Assembly (NCBI GenBank): GCA_963575645.1
Contig: OY754465.1
Span: 59,977,901-60,041,900 of the forward strand
DNA length: 64,000 nt
Origin: Xanthostigma xanthostigma
Taxonomy: Eukaryota; Arthropoda; Insecta; Raphidioptera; Raphidiidae
Direction of reading: 5' to 3'
Of the stretch, positions 3,245 to 61,299 are shown in pieces; the stretch's first letter is position 1, and each line of letters starts with the position of its first letter. The position numbers and the translations under genes were made by a program. The notes under the pieces are model-generated. The model did not search any database. It saw only the letters and a program-made list of their open reading frames with translations, and was not told where the DNA came from.

Positions 3245-3360
3245 TCTATAATAATATATAATGCTGAAGAGTTTGTTTGTTTGGTTGAACACGCTAATCT
3301 CAGGAACTACTGCTTCGAATTGAAAAATTTTTGAAATGAAAACTTCTTTAGCGGCGTTGT
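3245..3360 (+). mobile_element. 5' end of a Helitron-like element, family B
   Basis: Begins TCTATAATAATATATAATGC and continues 'gaagagtttgtttgtttgg', 'cgctaatctcaggaactact', matching the 5' part of the copies at 48121-48471 (same strand) and 9305-9947 (opposite strand). The element is interrupted by, or gives way to, the tandem array that follows. Confidence 0.65.
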
Positions 3361-3905
3361 ACATTTTTTTTGTAATGGGTATAAAAAATGTTAAACTCGC
3401 TTCAGATCGAAAATTCGTAAGACCTGATCGAAAATTCGTAAGACGAAAACTTTTGTACACTTTTTTTGTAATGGGTAAAAAATGTTAAACTCGCGTCAGA
3501 TCGAAAATTCGTATAAGACGAAAACTTTTGTACATTTTTTTTGTAATGGGTAAAAAATGTTAAACTCGCGTCAGATCGAAAATTCGTAAGACCTGATCGA
3601 AAATTCGTAAGATCTGATCGAAAATTCGTAAGACGAAAACTTTTGTACACTTTTTTTGTAATGGGTAAAAAATGTTAAACTCGCATCAGGACGCGTGACC
3701 TGATCGAAAATTCGTAAGAGGAAAACTTTTGTACACTTTTTTTGTAATGGGTAAAAAATGTTAAACTCGCGTCAGATCGAAAATGCGTAAGACCTGATCG
3801 AAAATTCGTAAGACGAAAACTTTTGTACACCTTTTTTGTAATGGGTAAAAAATGTTAAACTCGCGTCAGGACACATGACCCGATCGAAAATTCGTAAGAC
3901 GTTAA
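3353..3905. repeat. Minisatellite of ~6 units with a 20-bp inner subrepeat
   Basis: About six units of roughly 78-113 bp, each with 'ttttgtacactttttttgta', 'atgggtaaaaaatgttaaac' and 'tcgcgtcagatcgaaaattcg'. Unit length varies because a 20-bp subrepeat, 'cctgatcgaaaattcgtaag', occurs one to three times per unit. Open minus-strand frames here simply translate the array ('LTNFRS' repeats) and are not taken as genes. Confidence 0.85.
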
Positions 3906-22530: not shown

Positions 22531-22594
22531 CAGTGTAAACTCCATTTGGCGTCGCTCGATATAACGACAAACTCCTTAAAACGTCGAAATTACT

Positions 22595-25018
22595 ACGTCC
22601 ATTAAGCTAGCAGAACAAAGTCAGCAGAACAAAATATGACATAACTAATAATTAAGTGCTAATATAATGCTAATTAAATGCCCCAATCAAAAATTTATTG
22701 CTCCGTTTTTTTAAAAAAATATCGCATGTTCTGCTAGCTTAAGATTAACTCAGCAGAGCAGATACTGATAAAACCATTAAAAACAAATCTGACCGAATGA
22801 AAATCAAGTGAAAATTAAGTGCTAATTTAATGCTCTAATCAGAAATTTATTGCTCCGTTTTTTAAAAAAATATCACATGTTCTGCTAGCTTAAGATGAAC
22901 TCAGCAGAGCAGATACTGAAAAAACCATTAAAAACAAATCTGAACGAATGAAAATCAATTGAAAAATTAAGTGCTAATTTAATGCTCTAATCAGAAATTT
23001 ATTGCTCACTTTTTTTTAAATATCACATGTTCTGCTAGCTTCAGATGAACTCAGCAGAGCAGACTACTGATAAACCATTATAAACAAATCTGGTGGTAAG
23101 AAGTAACTATTCTTTCATTTTTAGTGTATTTGCCATATATGGCACATACACTAATTTCATGTGTTTACGTTAAATAGATTTTGAGTTATTAAGAGGTCAA
23201 AAGTGGCTCCAAATGGTTCGTGTAATATAACACACGGCTGGTGCGCTTTTTCTTTGTTGAACTGACACTGATGGTGACGAAATGTCACCTTATGAGTGCA
23301 TAAATGCAACAATGTGTCCAGGAACTATCGTGCGGCGACATCTAGGTATGACTGAAGCAGAAAATTGGCGCGAAAAATACAAATTATACGTTTTCACTCC
23401 TTTTTCGGAGCATTAAATTAGCACTTAATTTTTCAATTGATTTTCATTCGTTCAGATTTGTTTTTAATGGTTTTTTCAGTATCTGCTCTGCTGAGTTCAT
23501 CTTAAGCTAGCAGAACATGTGATATTTTTTTAAAAAACGGAGCAATAAATTTCTGATTAGAGCATTAAATTAGCACTTAATTTTCACTTGATTTTCATTC
23601 TGTCAGATTTGTTTTTAATGGTTTTATCAGTATCTGCTCTGCTGAGTTCATCTTAAGCTAGCAGAACATGCGATATTTTAAAAAAAAAAACGGAGCAATA
23701 AATTTCTGATTAGAGCATTAAATTAGCACTTAATTTTTCAATTGATTTTCATTCGGTCAGATTTGTTTTTAATGGTTTTTTCAGTATCTGCTCTGCTGAG
23801 TTCATCTTAAGCTAGCAGGACATGTGATATTTAAAAAAAAGTGAGCAATAAATTTCTTATTAGAGCATTAAATTAGCATTTAATTTTTCAATTGATTTTC
23901 ATTCGTTCAGATTTGTTTTTAATGTTTTTTTCAGTATCTGCTCTGCTGAGTTCATCTTAAGCTAGCAGAACATGCGATATTTTAAAAAAAAAACGGAGCA
24001 ATAAATTTCTGATTAGAGCATTAAATTAGCACTTAATTTTTCAATTGATTTTCATTCGTTCAGATTTGTTTTTAATGTTTTTTTCAGTATCTGCTCTGCT
24101 GAGTTCATCTTAAGCTAGCAGAACATGTGATATTTTTTTAAAAAACGGAGCAATAAATTTCTGATTAGAGCATTAAATTAGCACTTAATTTTCACTTGAT
24201 TTTCATTCGGTCAGATTTGTTTTTAATGGTTTTATCAGTATCTGCTCTGCTGAGTTCATCTTAAGCTAGCAGAACATGCGATATTTAAAAAAAAAAACGG
24301 AGCAATAAATTTCTGATTAGAGCATTAAATTAGCACTTAATTTTTCAATTGATTTTCATTCGTTCAGATTTGTTTTTAATGTTTTTTTCAGTATCTGCTC
24401 TGCTGAGTTCATCTTAAGCTAGCAGAACATGTGATATTTTTTTAAAAAATGGAGCAATAAATTTCTGATTAGAGCATTAAATTAGCACTTAATTTTCACT
24501 TGATTTTCATTCGGTCAGATTCTTTTTTAATGGTTTTATCAGTATCTGCTCTGCTGAGTTCATCTTAAGCTAGCAGAACATGCGATATTTAAAAAAAAAA
24601 AACGGAGCAATAAATTTCTGATTAGAGCATTAAATTAGCACTTAATTATTCAATTGATTTTCATTCGTTCAGATTTGTTTTTAATGGTTTTTTCAGTATC
24701 TGCTCTGCTGAGTTCATCTTAAGCTAGCAGAACATGTGATATTTTTTTAAAAAACGGAGCAATAAATTTCTTATTAGAGCATTAAATTAGCACTTAATTT
24801 TCACTTGATTTTCATTCGGTCAGATTTGTTTTTAATGGTTTTATCAGTATCTGCTCTGCTGAGTTAATCTTAAGCTAGCAGAACATGCGATATTTTTAAA
24901 AAAAAAACGGAGCAATAAATTTTTGATTGGGGCATTTAATTAGCATTATATTAGCACTTAATTATTAGTTATGTCATATTTTGTTCTGCTGACCTTGTTC
25001 TGCTAGCTTAATGGACGT
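22595..25018. mobile_element. Large fold-back (MULE-like?) element built of tandem units
   Basis: Flanked by a 9-bp duplication GAAATTACT (22586-22594 and 25019-25027); copy 1 of element P has the site once. Ends ACGTCCATTAAGCTAGCAG and the exact inverse. The left arm (22595 to about 23090) holds three units, the right arm (about 23396-25018) about ten inverted units. Between them is a ~300-bp centre (23091-23395) partly shared with 61305-61425. A 9-bp duplication with long composite arms suggests a Mutator-like fold-back, but no transposase is present and the superfamily is inference. Confidence 0.8.
23396..24990. repeat. ~152-bp satellite array with a two-unit higher-order pattern
   Basis: The word 'aagctagcag' recurs with GCTAG at 23505, 23657, 23811, 23961, 24114, 24265, 24418, 24569, 24723 and 24874, a spacing of 150-154 bp. 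Units alternate between type A ('catgtgatatttttttaa', 'ttttcacttgattttcatt') and type B ('catgcgatattt', 'tttttcaattgattttcatt'). The true repeating block is therefore a ~304-bp dimer. One unit (23811) departs from the order. Confidence 0.9.
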
Positions 25019-25263
25019 GAAATTACTTAACTATAGCTGGTTTATCTTGTTGCTCATAATGATACACTCTAAATAGCGACATCATTACGTCATCATTAAG
25101 CAATAAACGGTTCTTGTTTGTTATTTTGTTGCTTTGTTGTCGGTATCACGCGTACCGAAGATTCTAAGAAATTCAGTCTTTTGTTGGGATTATCTTTCAT
25201 ATGGTTTAACTCAGTTGCTTGTCGATATATTCTTAGTTGGTCAGTTGTAAATCTTATATAAAT

Positions 25264-30119: not shown

Positions 30120-31010
30120 GCGTTCTCATTTGAAGCGATTGAAACGCAAAACTGGGCAGCGTTTTAGGGAGCGTTAAGGTAGTGTTAAGACTGAACAACA
30201 CAATGGCGTGTTCTGGAAAGCGATGTATTGAGGTTGAGTAGCGCTCTAGGGAGCGTTCTGTTGCAAAAAATAATGCTAGGTGCAGGGTTTACGACTGAAC
30301 ACACGATGACGTGCTCTGGAAAGCGATGTATTGACGTTGAGTAGCGCTTTAGGGAGCGTTCTGTTGCAAGAAATGATGCTAGGTGGGTTTACGACTGAAC
30401 ACACGATGGCGTGTTCTTGAAAGCGATATATTGGGGTTAAGTAGCGCTTTAGGGAGCGTTCTGTTGCAAAAACTGATGCTAGGTGGGTTTACGACTGAAC
30501 ACACGATGGCGTGTTCTGAAAAGCGATATATTGAGGTTGAGTAGCGCTTTATGAAGCGTTCTCTTGCAAAAATGATGCGAGGTGGTGTTAAGATTGAACA
30601 CATGATGTGTTCTGGAAAGCGATACATTAGCGCTGAACAGTGCTTTAGGGAGCGTTCTCGTGCTAAAATGAAGTGTTAGAACTCAGCGCTCAATGATATA
30701 ATTGTTTTCATTCTTAAAAGCGATGTATTGAATCAAGCAGCGTTGTCCAGTGTTCTCACTCAAAAATGTTTGCTCTAAAAAGCTTTTGACGCTAAACAGC
30801 GCTTTTGGAAGCATTCTCGTACAAAAAATAAAGCGGTTGGCGCTGCTTGTTGTCGAAAGCGACATGTTGGCGTTGAAAAACGCTTTAGGGCGCGTTCTCT
30901 TACAGAATGCTGCACAACAATGTGTTCGTTCTGATAAACGATTTGTAGGCAGTGAACAGCGCTTTAAGAAACGTTTTAATACAGGAAAAAGGTTTGCGAT
31001 TTAACACATA
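30120..31010. repeat. Degenerate ~100-bp minisatellite, ~9 units
   Basis: 'agcgctttagggagcgttct' recurs near 30158, 30240, 30345, 30443, 30543, 30640, 30798, 30880 and 30958. Each repeat is followed by 'ttgcaaaaa' and 'actgaacacacgatggcgtg'. Early units are ~99-106 bp and fairly alike; later ones shorten to ~80 bp and diverge. Units of 99 bp keep one minus-strand frame open, which produces spurious repeated peptides. Confidence 0.85.
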
Positions 31011-58588: not shown

Positions 58589-58636
58589 GTCTAAAAGGAT
58601 TCGGAGTTGAACAAATCTTAATTTGAATTCGCTTAA

Positions 58637-60571
58637 GCCGGGTACTCATTAGCGAGCTGTAACTGTAACATGTGTGATACAGTAACGAGGTTCTAGTGTG
58701 TACGCGTGTTACAGTTACAGCTCGCGATGTCGCCGGATCGCTTTCACCGAGCGTACTCATTAGCGAGCTGTAACCGTAACATGTGTGATACAGTAACGAG
58801 GTTCTAGTGTGTACGCGTGTTACAGTTACAGCTCGCGACGTCGCCGGATCGCTTTCACCGAGCGTACTCATTTTGCGAGCTGTAACTGTAACCAAACAGA
58901 TACAGTTCGAAGTTCTAGTGTGTACGAGAAGGCCGGATTTATCCGCAGGTTTACTCCACGATGTCGGACGAAGTGTCTCTCGCTTGTGCAGCTACATACA
59001 TACAATAGTTGTCGATGTTGATACAACACAAGTTACAACCTCTCCTCTTGACGTCCACAAGCGCACTGCGAGCGCCCTTTGATTCGCGGCAAAAACCGAC
59101 AATCGTCGGCTCGCTGCAAACGGCACGCGTACCGCTCGCAGCAGGTTTACGAACCACGTACACACTATGTTTTTGGTAACAGTAACGGTTACAGTTACGT
59201 GCAACGTTACGGGTTAGAAATGAGTACGTCGTAAACGTCGGCTCGCTGCAAGCGGCACGCGTACCGCTCGCAGCAGGTTTACGAAACACGTACACACTAT
59301 GTTTTTGGTAACAGTAACGGTTACAGTTACGTGCAACGTTACGGGCTCAGAAATGAGTACGTTGTAAACGTCGGCTCGCTGCAAGCGGCACGCGTACCGC
59401 TCGCAGCAGGCTTGCGAACCACGTACAAACTATGTTTTTTGGTTACAGTACATGCAACGGTTACGGTTACGGCTCGCTAATGAGTACCCGGCTTAAGTAC
59501 TCATTTCTGAACCCGTAACGTTGCACGTAACTGTAACCGTTACTGTTACCAAAAACATAGTGTGTACGTGGTTCGTAAACCTGCTGTGAGCGGTACGCGT
59601 GCCGCTTGCAGCGAGCCGACGTTTACAACGTACTCATTTCTGAATCCGTAACGTTGCACGTAACTGTAACCGTTACTGTTACCAAAAACATAGTGTGTAC
59701 GTGGTTCGTAAACCTGCTGCGAGCGGTACGCGTGCCGCTTGCAGCGAGCCGACGATTGTCGGTTTTTGCCGCGAATCAAAGGGCGCTCGCAGTGCGCTTG
59801 TGGACGTCAAGAGGAGAGGTTGTAACTTGTGTTGTATCTACATCGACAACTATTGTATGTATGTATGCTGCACAAGCGAGAGACACTTCGTCCGACATCG
59901 TGGAGTTTCAAACCTGCGGATAAATCCGGCTTGTCAGGCCACTGGCCTTCTCGTACACACTAGAAATTCGAACTGTATCTGTTTGGTTACAGTTACAGCT
60001 CGCAAAATGAGTACGCTCGGTGAAAGCGATCCGGCGACGTCGCGAGCTGTAACTGTAACACGCGTACACACTAGAACCTCGTTACTGTATCACACATGTT
60101 ACGGTTACAGCTCGCTAATGAGTACGCTCGGTGAAAGTGATCCGGCGACATCGCGAGCTGTAACTGTAACACGCGTACACACTAGAACCTCGTTACTGTA
60201 TCACACATGTTACGGTTACAGCTCGCTAATGAGTACCCGGCTCTATGTTTTTGGTAACAGTAACGGTTACAGTTACGTGCAACGTTACGGGTTCAGAAAT
60301 GAGTACGTTGTAAACGTCGGCTCGCTGCAAGCGGCACGCGTACCGCTCACAGCAGGTATACGAACCACGTACACACTATGTTTTTGGTAACAGTAACGGT
60401 TACAGTTACGTGCAACGTTACGGGTTCAGAAATGAGTACGTTGTAAACGTCGGCTCGCTACAAGCGGCACGCGTACCGCTCGCAGCAGGCTTGCGAACCA
60501 CGTACACACTATGTTTTTTGGTTACAGTACATGCAACGGTTACGGTTACGGCTCGCTAGTGAGTACCCGGC
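58637..60571. mobile_element. Composite fold-back element of three inverted modules
   Basis: Module 1 (58637-59492) starts GCCGGGTACTCATTAGCGAG, ends with the inverse, and is bracketed by TTAA (58633-58636 and 59493-59496). Module 2 (59497-60242) is an inverse copy of most of module 1. Module 3 (60243-60571) is a direct partial copy of its right half. Module 1 contains two ~110-bp units of one kind, a unique ~150-bp core and about three ~133-bp units of another. It is GC- and CpG-rich. The TTAA flanks could mean piggyBac, or a TTA duplication Harbinger. The long frame 59695-60390 only translates the repeats. Confidence 0.8.
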
Positions 60572-61299
60572 TTTACTTAATATCTTAAATACTTTTTTCA
60601 GGATGAAATTTTACAAAGTTCTAAATTGGGCCCCAAGGCCCTATGATGTATTAATTTATAAAATTTCATCCCGAGACTCTAGACGATTTCCTATCTTCGG
60701 TGGAAACGTACTCTTTAGTAGTAGGTATATTTATTGTCTGTCAAATGCGAGCTGAGCCTTAATGTGCAATAAAAATGTAAATTTTTTGAGATTAGTTGAA
60801 AGAAAAAAACAGTGTACATACTTAAAACCACACAGTAGAAGAGAAACTTACATTGATCACCAAAGCATAGATGGCAATACCAACGAAACGCATTGATTAG
60901 TTCATAAATAGTGCGTCAATTGTTGTGTTCACAATCTATATGTCGCTTTTTAATTTTATTGCCTCACGGTCTTATCTCCATTATATAAGTTTCCCTTGAC
61001 AAAATTGTTTTTGAAAATTAACTCTTGTGATGCTATATCTCGTCGATTTTTCCCTGTACATGCATAGTATTCTTTTTCGAAAGGTGCTATAGAGTATAGG
61101 TGTTAATAAAAATCGATTGCTTGGAAAATATTTCAAATCTTAAAAAATCACTGTTTTCTGAATTTTTCCTTTGCATACACACAATTATCTAGCTGGACGC
61201 CTTTCAACTTTCTAGGTCATCTGGAAGTGGGTTAGGTTTTTGATCTTCAAGATGTAAGTTGAAATTTGAGGTTCTAGTTAATCAGGGGTTTTAATAAAT
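60572..61299. other. Unannotated spacer
   Basis: No gene; AT-rich with no recognised repeats. Confidence 0.5.

Follow-up and report, generated by a model that had tools for sequence, protein, structure and literature searches.

A foldback transposon family with satellite-like tandem units and whole-unit turnover in Xanthostigma xanthostigma

Introduction

Can a tandem array that grows inside a transposon seed a satellite? The question is raised by a stretch of 64,000 nucleotides of the Xanthostigma xanthostigma genome (the window), part of a 623-Mb assembly of 28 contigs. A sequence-only reading of this stretch had described a 2.4-kb element with inverted ends that is built almost wholly of ~152-bp units, and had proposed that a satellite array is growing inside a transposon, a possible route for seeding satellites. 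The FB (foldback) element of Drosophila has long inverted arms of tandem repeats, with a ~155-bp higher-order unit that is itself built of ~31-bp repeats, a 9-bp target duplication and variable arm length. By this general description, the element in the window resembles FB in its arms and their variable length, its unit size and its 9-bp duplication. A route from foldback element to satellite has been published for Tetris of Drosophila virilis (PMC4079207). We therefore consider here what kind of element occupies the window, how its array changes among the copies of its family, and whether its units have left the transposon in the assembled genome.

Results

Structure and insertion of the element

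The element is a transposon insertion of 2,424 bp whose parts are collected in Table 1. Its position, its inverted ends and its 9-bp duplication were read correctly from the sequence to the base: the 22-bp inverted tips (ACGTCCATTAAGCTAGCAGAAC) are exact at both ends, and an exact target duplication (GAAATTACT) lies on either side. The outer 96 bp of the left and right ends differ by 1 base. The element is non-coding, with a spacer of 315 bp between inverted arms of 3 and 10 units. These unit counts, and the opposite orientation of right-arm and left-arm units (profile search), also agree with the first description; that the element consists almost wholly of units does not hold in full, since the spacer and terminal domains of ~90 bp are present as well. 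Tandem Repeats Finder resolved the left arm into 2.8 copies of 151 bp. For the right arm it gave two solutions, a 153-bp period in 10.1 copies (score 2605) and a 305-bp period in 5.1 copies (score 2837).

Table 1. Parts of the foldback element and its target-site duplication, in positions of the window
Feature	Position	Strand	Evidence or remark
Element, 2,424 bp	22595..25018		
Target-site duplication, left (GAAATTACT)	22586..22594	.	sequence; empty site
Target-site duplication, right (GAAATTACT)	25019..25027	.	sequence; empty site
22-bp terminal inverted repeat tip, left	22595..22616	+	
22-bp terminal inverted repeat tip, right	24997..25018	-	
Left terminal domain, ~90 bp, outside the first unit	22595..22684	+	
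Right terminal domain, ~90 bp	24929..25018	-	
Left arm, three ~152-bp units, innermost partial	22685..23102	-	profile search
Left-arm units	22685-22835, 22836-22987, 22988-23102		profile; arm similarity stops at 23092 (blast)
Spacer, 315 bp, non-unit	23093..23407	+	
Right arm, ten ~152-bp units	23408..24928	+	
Right-arm unit starts	23408, 23560, 23713, 23863, 24016, 24168, 24320, 24472, 24625, 24777		
Off-type units breaking the right-arm A/B alternation	23713 and 23863		

The surroundings of the element belong to a dispersed repeat, the host repeat. When the window flanks were joined with one copy of GAAATTACT (207 bp) and searched against the assembly, 39 of the 40 scored rows (643 candidates) matched through the junction at 86-91% identity, the remaining row, row 40, being the window's own left flank. 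Empty sites were judged by this match through the junction as a whole. The matching rows are therefore other copies of the host repeat that do not carry the element.

Within the spacer, window positions 23153-23263 (spacer positions 61-171, 111 bp) are 90-95% identical to 29 of 40 scored places, family spacers excepted, and one of these 29 places directly adjoins the family fragment L028. This stretch probably stems from another dispersed repeat, a piece of which became lodged in the spacer.

A recently spread family

Relatives of the element were found through its tips. With at most 2 mismatches allowed, the genome has 41 places that match the 22-mer tip, compared with 0 for a reversed control; with at most 3 allowed it has 46, compared with 1. 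Numbers so far above the control are not due to chance. Perfect tips are present at 36 places, made up of 17 convergent pairs that bound 306-5,028 bp and two single ends. An exact 9-bp duplication flanks 16 of these 17 copies, and the 16 duplication sequences are all different; the exception is L022. L025 and L030, two older pairs whose tips have 2 mismatches each, are likewise without an exact duplication. Six single matches to the 16-mer core of the tip were found in viral contigs, one per stretch.

At 34 of 40 scored family ends (47 candidates), the sequence is 99-100% identical to the first 96 bp of the left end, and the spacer is 99-100% identical in nine copies, including that in the window. 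Since both the terminal 96 bp and the spacer are so nearly identical among copies, the spread of the family looks recent. Unit counts in the nine spacer-sharing copies run from 13 to 30, partial units included. Shorter spacer matches are present in L020, which retains 143 bp, and in L025, with 130 bp at 91%, and a spacer match was not found in L015, L016, L017, L022, L023, L027, L029 or L030. In the 13 perfect-tip copies longer than 2 kb, the arms hold 3 to 22 units each. The family thus has the attributes of foldback elements: long terminal inverted repeats with tandem repeats inside, insertion as a unit with a target-site duplication (16 of 17 perfect-tip copies, and the empty sites of the window copy), and arm length that differs between arms and between copies through repeat number.

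Units were collected from 19 copies, leaving out L021, L024, L026 and L028, in each of which one end was recognised. With the poly-A/T tract ignored, the resulting 266 units represent 112 sequences, 43 of them seen more than once. Of the 254 full units, 249 contain the 16-base tip core (TTAAGCTAGCAGAACA) with at most 1 mismatch, and 201 contain it exactly. Inside the units it runs opposite to the tip of their own arm, and no exact copy in the other orientation was found in the 254 full units. The presence of the tip core in nearly all units suggests that the ~152-bp units and the terminal domain probably share an origin. It also suggests that the units may act as extra transposase-binding sites, that is, as putative secondary sites of the kind proposed for Galileo and Tetris. 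Conservation in the part of the unit that bears the motif does not significantly exceed that in the remainder (9 of 111 segments of equal length vary as little or less), so that a role in binding gains no support from constraint.

Units in the assembly and the order of units within arms

A genome-wide search for the unit had been suggested as a check on satellite seeding. With at most 3 mismatches, a 32-base core of the unit occurs 280 times in the assembly. All except two of these occurrences (278 of 280) lie inside the window element and 22 family loci, either elements or fragments, 13 of them in the four copies that have one recognised end; a further occurrence lies in an older relative, L063, and one is unplaced. 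This search of the whole assembly found no stand-alone array of units, and the longest array seen, of 22 units, lies inside one element, L014. Long arrays that are independent of the transposon were not found in the assembled sequence, and for this sequence the genome-wide count speaks against the element having seeded a satellite. The family could still be regarded as a satellite in the making, whose units would break free and form independent arrays like the TIR-220 repeats of Tetris. The length of the array in L014 and an exact 603-bp block duplication in the right arm of L009 (see below) would suit this idea, and Tetris demonstrates such a route from foldback element to satellite (PMC4079207). 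We nevertheless consider it improbable, because the unit cores lie almost without exception in family elements or fragments, the old relative and the unplaced occurrence apart, and stand-alone arrays were not seen in the assembled sequence.

The right-arm units had further been described as alternating between A and B types, a ~304-bp higher-order unit as in satellites. The alternation is real in this arm, where, counted inwards from the tip, three A B pairs are followed by two off-type units and one more A B pair, so that 2 of 10 units break it; identity is 0.955 at lag 2 versus 0.920 at lag 1 (permutation p = 0.0235). It is local, however, and does not amount to a satellite-like higher-order unit, since none of the 19 other arms, sister copies included, showed lag-2 identity above lag-1 identity at p < 0.05 (permutation, 20 arms in all). 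The 13 arms with at least 8 interior units were also examined lag by lag, in 65 uncorrected tests. The right arm of L009 has a period of 4 (p = 0.0005), the sole result of the 65 to survive Bonferroni correction; the right arm of L020 has a period of 3 (p = 0.0015, uncorrected), and weak periods of 2 appear in the left arm of L009 (p = 0.037) and the right arm of its sister L011 (p = 0.034), both uncorrected. The window arm gave p = 0.052 at lag 2 and p = 0.027 at lag 4, and the remaining eight arms showed no period at p < 0.05. Were the alternation a stable higher-order repeat of the kind seen in classical satellites and fixed in this family, the higher Tandem Repeats Finder score of the 305-bp period and the lag result of the window arm would be explained, but the other arms would be expected to share it; instead the period differs from arm to arm, the mixture is what block duplication would leave, and no multi-unit order is repeated across arrays. 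On both analyses we reject a stable A/B repeat as a family feature, and we regard such a repeat as very unlikely indeed. The most plausible reading of the alternation is that block duplication left it as a local trace.

Sister copies differ by whole-unit blocks

Three pairs of copies have a common unit order: L018 and L019, L009 and reversed L011, and L015 and reversed L016. L018 and L019 both carry one 13-unit order and differ by 1 base and no block. Between L009 and reversed L011 there are one 603-bp block (4 units) and 3 mismatches over 3,193 bp, and the block, in the right arm of L009, repeats its neighbour exactly and in tandem. In the comparison of L015 with reversed L016, one 458-bp block (3 units) and 1 mismatch were found over 3,414 bp. 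Over the three pairs, 5 base changes therefore accompanied 2 block changes. The target duplications differ within each pair. The 1.5-kb flanks gave no match within L009/L011 or L015/L016, and those of L018 and L019 have in common a 224-bp stretch at 84% and a 28-bp stretch, with no long similarity. Runs of at least 4 common unit types were not found between any two arms outside the sister pairs. The proposal that the array is changing inside the transposon is thus borne out by sister copies at unrelated sites that differ by clean 3- or 4-unit blocks; these changes may have taken place during transposition or later.

Tandem arrays are prone to mis-assembly, our analysis is based on the assembly, and the exact 603-bp duplication in L009 is of a kind that an assembler could make. 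If unit counts and unit order were assembly artefacts, however, the errors would have to have arisen independently at each site, and such errors would not agree: one and the same succession of 13 units is found in L018 and L019, which sit at unrelated sites, and within the sister pairs every unit matches its counterpart once a single clean block is set aside. We therefore hold it to be most improbable that the observed orders are artefacts.

The position of a unit in its arm was then compared across 20 arms of 10 copies, excluding the sisters L011, L016 and L019 as well as short and old copies. Position-1 units are 98.1% identical across copies versus 92.7% to units elsewhere, and position-2 units 96.2% across copies versus 93.6% to other positions, whereas at positions 3 to 8 the difference lies between -0.2 and +0.6 points. 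Interior units are 93.3% identical between copies and 93.5% within an arm. The two outermost units keep their position and the deeper units are shuffled. One base marks the outermost unit: it is carried by 29 units, 26 of them at position 1 and three in the interior, and two of these three belong to the sisters L018 and L019. Nine position-1 units are without the marking base, all of them in L020, L022 or short or old copies.

Homogenisation of the left and right arms by conversion within a copy was also considered. For units at the same position, identity within a copy departs from identity between copies by no more than 0.4 points at positions 1-3 and exceeds it by 0.8-0.9 points at positions 4-5 (8 to 10 copies). 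With gains this small, such homogenisation is at most weakly supported.

Matches to transposases

MULE target duplications measure 8-11 bp. A duplication of 9 bp, as in 16 of the 17 perfect-tip copies, points towards Mutator, a superfamily in which this size is common (PMC3169594). The genome contains 53 MULE domain matches. In 20 of these, read with ~1.5 kb on each side, the tip core never came closer than 3 mismatches, and none of the 46 tip places (at most 3 mismatches) adjoins a MULE match among the matches listed. No coding copy was found via the MULE matches, the tip places or the 96-bp terminal domain, for which 40 of 47 candidates were scored. L030, which is older and two-tipped, contains no complete open frame of 80 aa, and the open stretches from MULE loci found no meaningful match in L030 or other family copies (best E 0.22). 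One of the MULE matches, L049 (C3:12631834-12632112), has a 422-aa MULE open frame; in its flanks a short C-rich repeat (AATCTCCCC...) forms inverted arrays, which represent a second end structure of the foldback-like kind in this genome.

The MULE matches are unevenly distributed. A transposase-dense island on contig C10, outside the window at about 8.7-16.3 Mb and ~1.2% of the genome, holds 31 of the 53 and also about 71 of the 119 match rows of piggyBac type (116 of 311 candidates were scored); many of these transposase matches have long open frames. It is perhaps a heterochromatic or non-recombining region.

A foldback of the P superfamily, Galileo-like rather than Mutator-like, would also have long arms, in which the number of internal tandem repeats varies (PMC3573991). 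The duplications of Galileo are 7 bp long (PMC3573991), whereas here 16 of 17 perfect-tip copies have exactly 9 bp; 9 bp is the usual size in Tm1 (PMC3169594) and falls inside the 8-10 bp from which Tetris was proposed to be Mutator-like (PMC4079207). We find little to recommend the P superfamily, and other superfamilies with 8-9-bp duplications are formally possible.

Discussion

We conclude with good confidence that the element is a non-autonomous foldback DNA transposon that is mobilised in trans, most likely by a MULE, inserts with a 9-bp duplication and undergoes whole-unit turnover. According to our model, a transposase acting in trans, most likely Mutator-like, would recognise the conserved ~90-bp terminal domains, move the element and insert it at a staggered cut of 9 bp. 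The arms consist of long, nearly identical repeats, both direct and inverted, and for this reason we propose that break repair after excision, or unequal exchange, could lead to the gain and loss of whole units. The ends would stay fixed, presumably since they are needed for movement, and the interior would change fast. A further step, which we put forward as a tentative and rather unlikely possibility, is that movement itself rewrites the array, with excision and repair deleting or duplicating 152-bp blocks and keeping the two outer units. If this were true, the element would be a mobile minisatellite that mutates mainly when moving, and the unit order would be a record of each copy's descent.

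Close structural precedents exist in Tetris, Galileo and Tm1, and the element is ordinary in kind and informative in detail. Tetris, likened here by structural description, is also a non-autonomous foldback element with an outer flanking domain and an inner array of variable unit number (PMC4079207). Its units are ~220 bp long and AT-rich, compared with ~152 bp here; its duplications are 8-10 bp, compared with exactly 9 bp in 16 of 17 copies; and its units share a 37-bp stretch with the outer domain, where here they share the 16-base tip core (PMC4079207). Its middle domain is described as being without coding capacity, alleles one unit apart are known, and for Tetris, too, a transposase partner was not found (PMC4079207). 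Three structurally complete Tetris copies are reported there, compared with 17 copies with two perfect tips here, and stand-alone arrays of the kind known from Tetris were not found in the assembly. In Galileo there are up to three internal tandem repeats of ~210 bp; in one subfamily their number rises and falls in each arm independently of the other, and the repeats have been proposed to carry secondary transposase-binding sites (PMC3573991). Galileo differs from the element in its 7-bp duplications, its encoded P-type transposase and its few repeats per arm (PMC3573991). Tm1 of root-knot nematodes has foldback-like arms, variable tandem repeats and mostly 9-bp duplications, and a coding relative is known, with a MULE transposase in one subgroup; unlike the element, it has repeats of 13-15 bp and asymmetric end motifs outside the inverted repeat (PMC3169594). 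Literature word searches by topic did not bring up a paper recognisable as describing the present family.

A recently spread multi-copy family is thereby added to the foldback elements with satellite-like units. Its near-identical copies in one contiguous assembly reveal single events of whole-unit gain or loss, and it is thanks to their number that fixed outer units can be seen beside a shuffled interior. In contrast to Tetris, the family represents a stage at which expansion inside the transposon has not visibly led to a free satellite.

The window contains other repeats. Positions 58636-60573 hold a compound of another repeat family, with inverted arms, CCGGGTACTC ends, TTAA at the left end and at an inner joint, and inner tandem repeats of 111 bp and 133 bp; its first ~860 bp match 31 other places nearly or fully at 94-99% identity (40 scored of 151 candidates). 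Short tandem arrays lie at 213-554, 3357-3901 and 30185-30658, with periods of 152 bp, ~75-94 bp and 100 bp.
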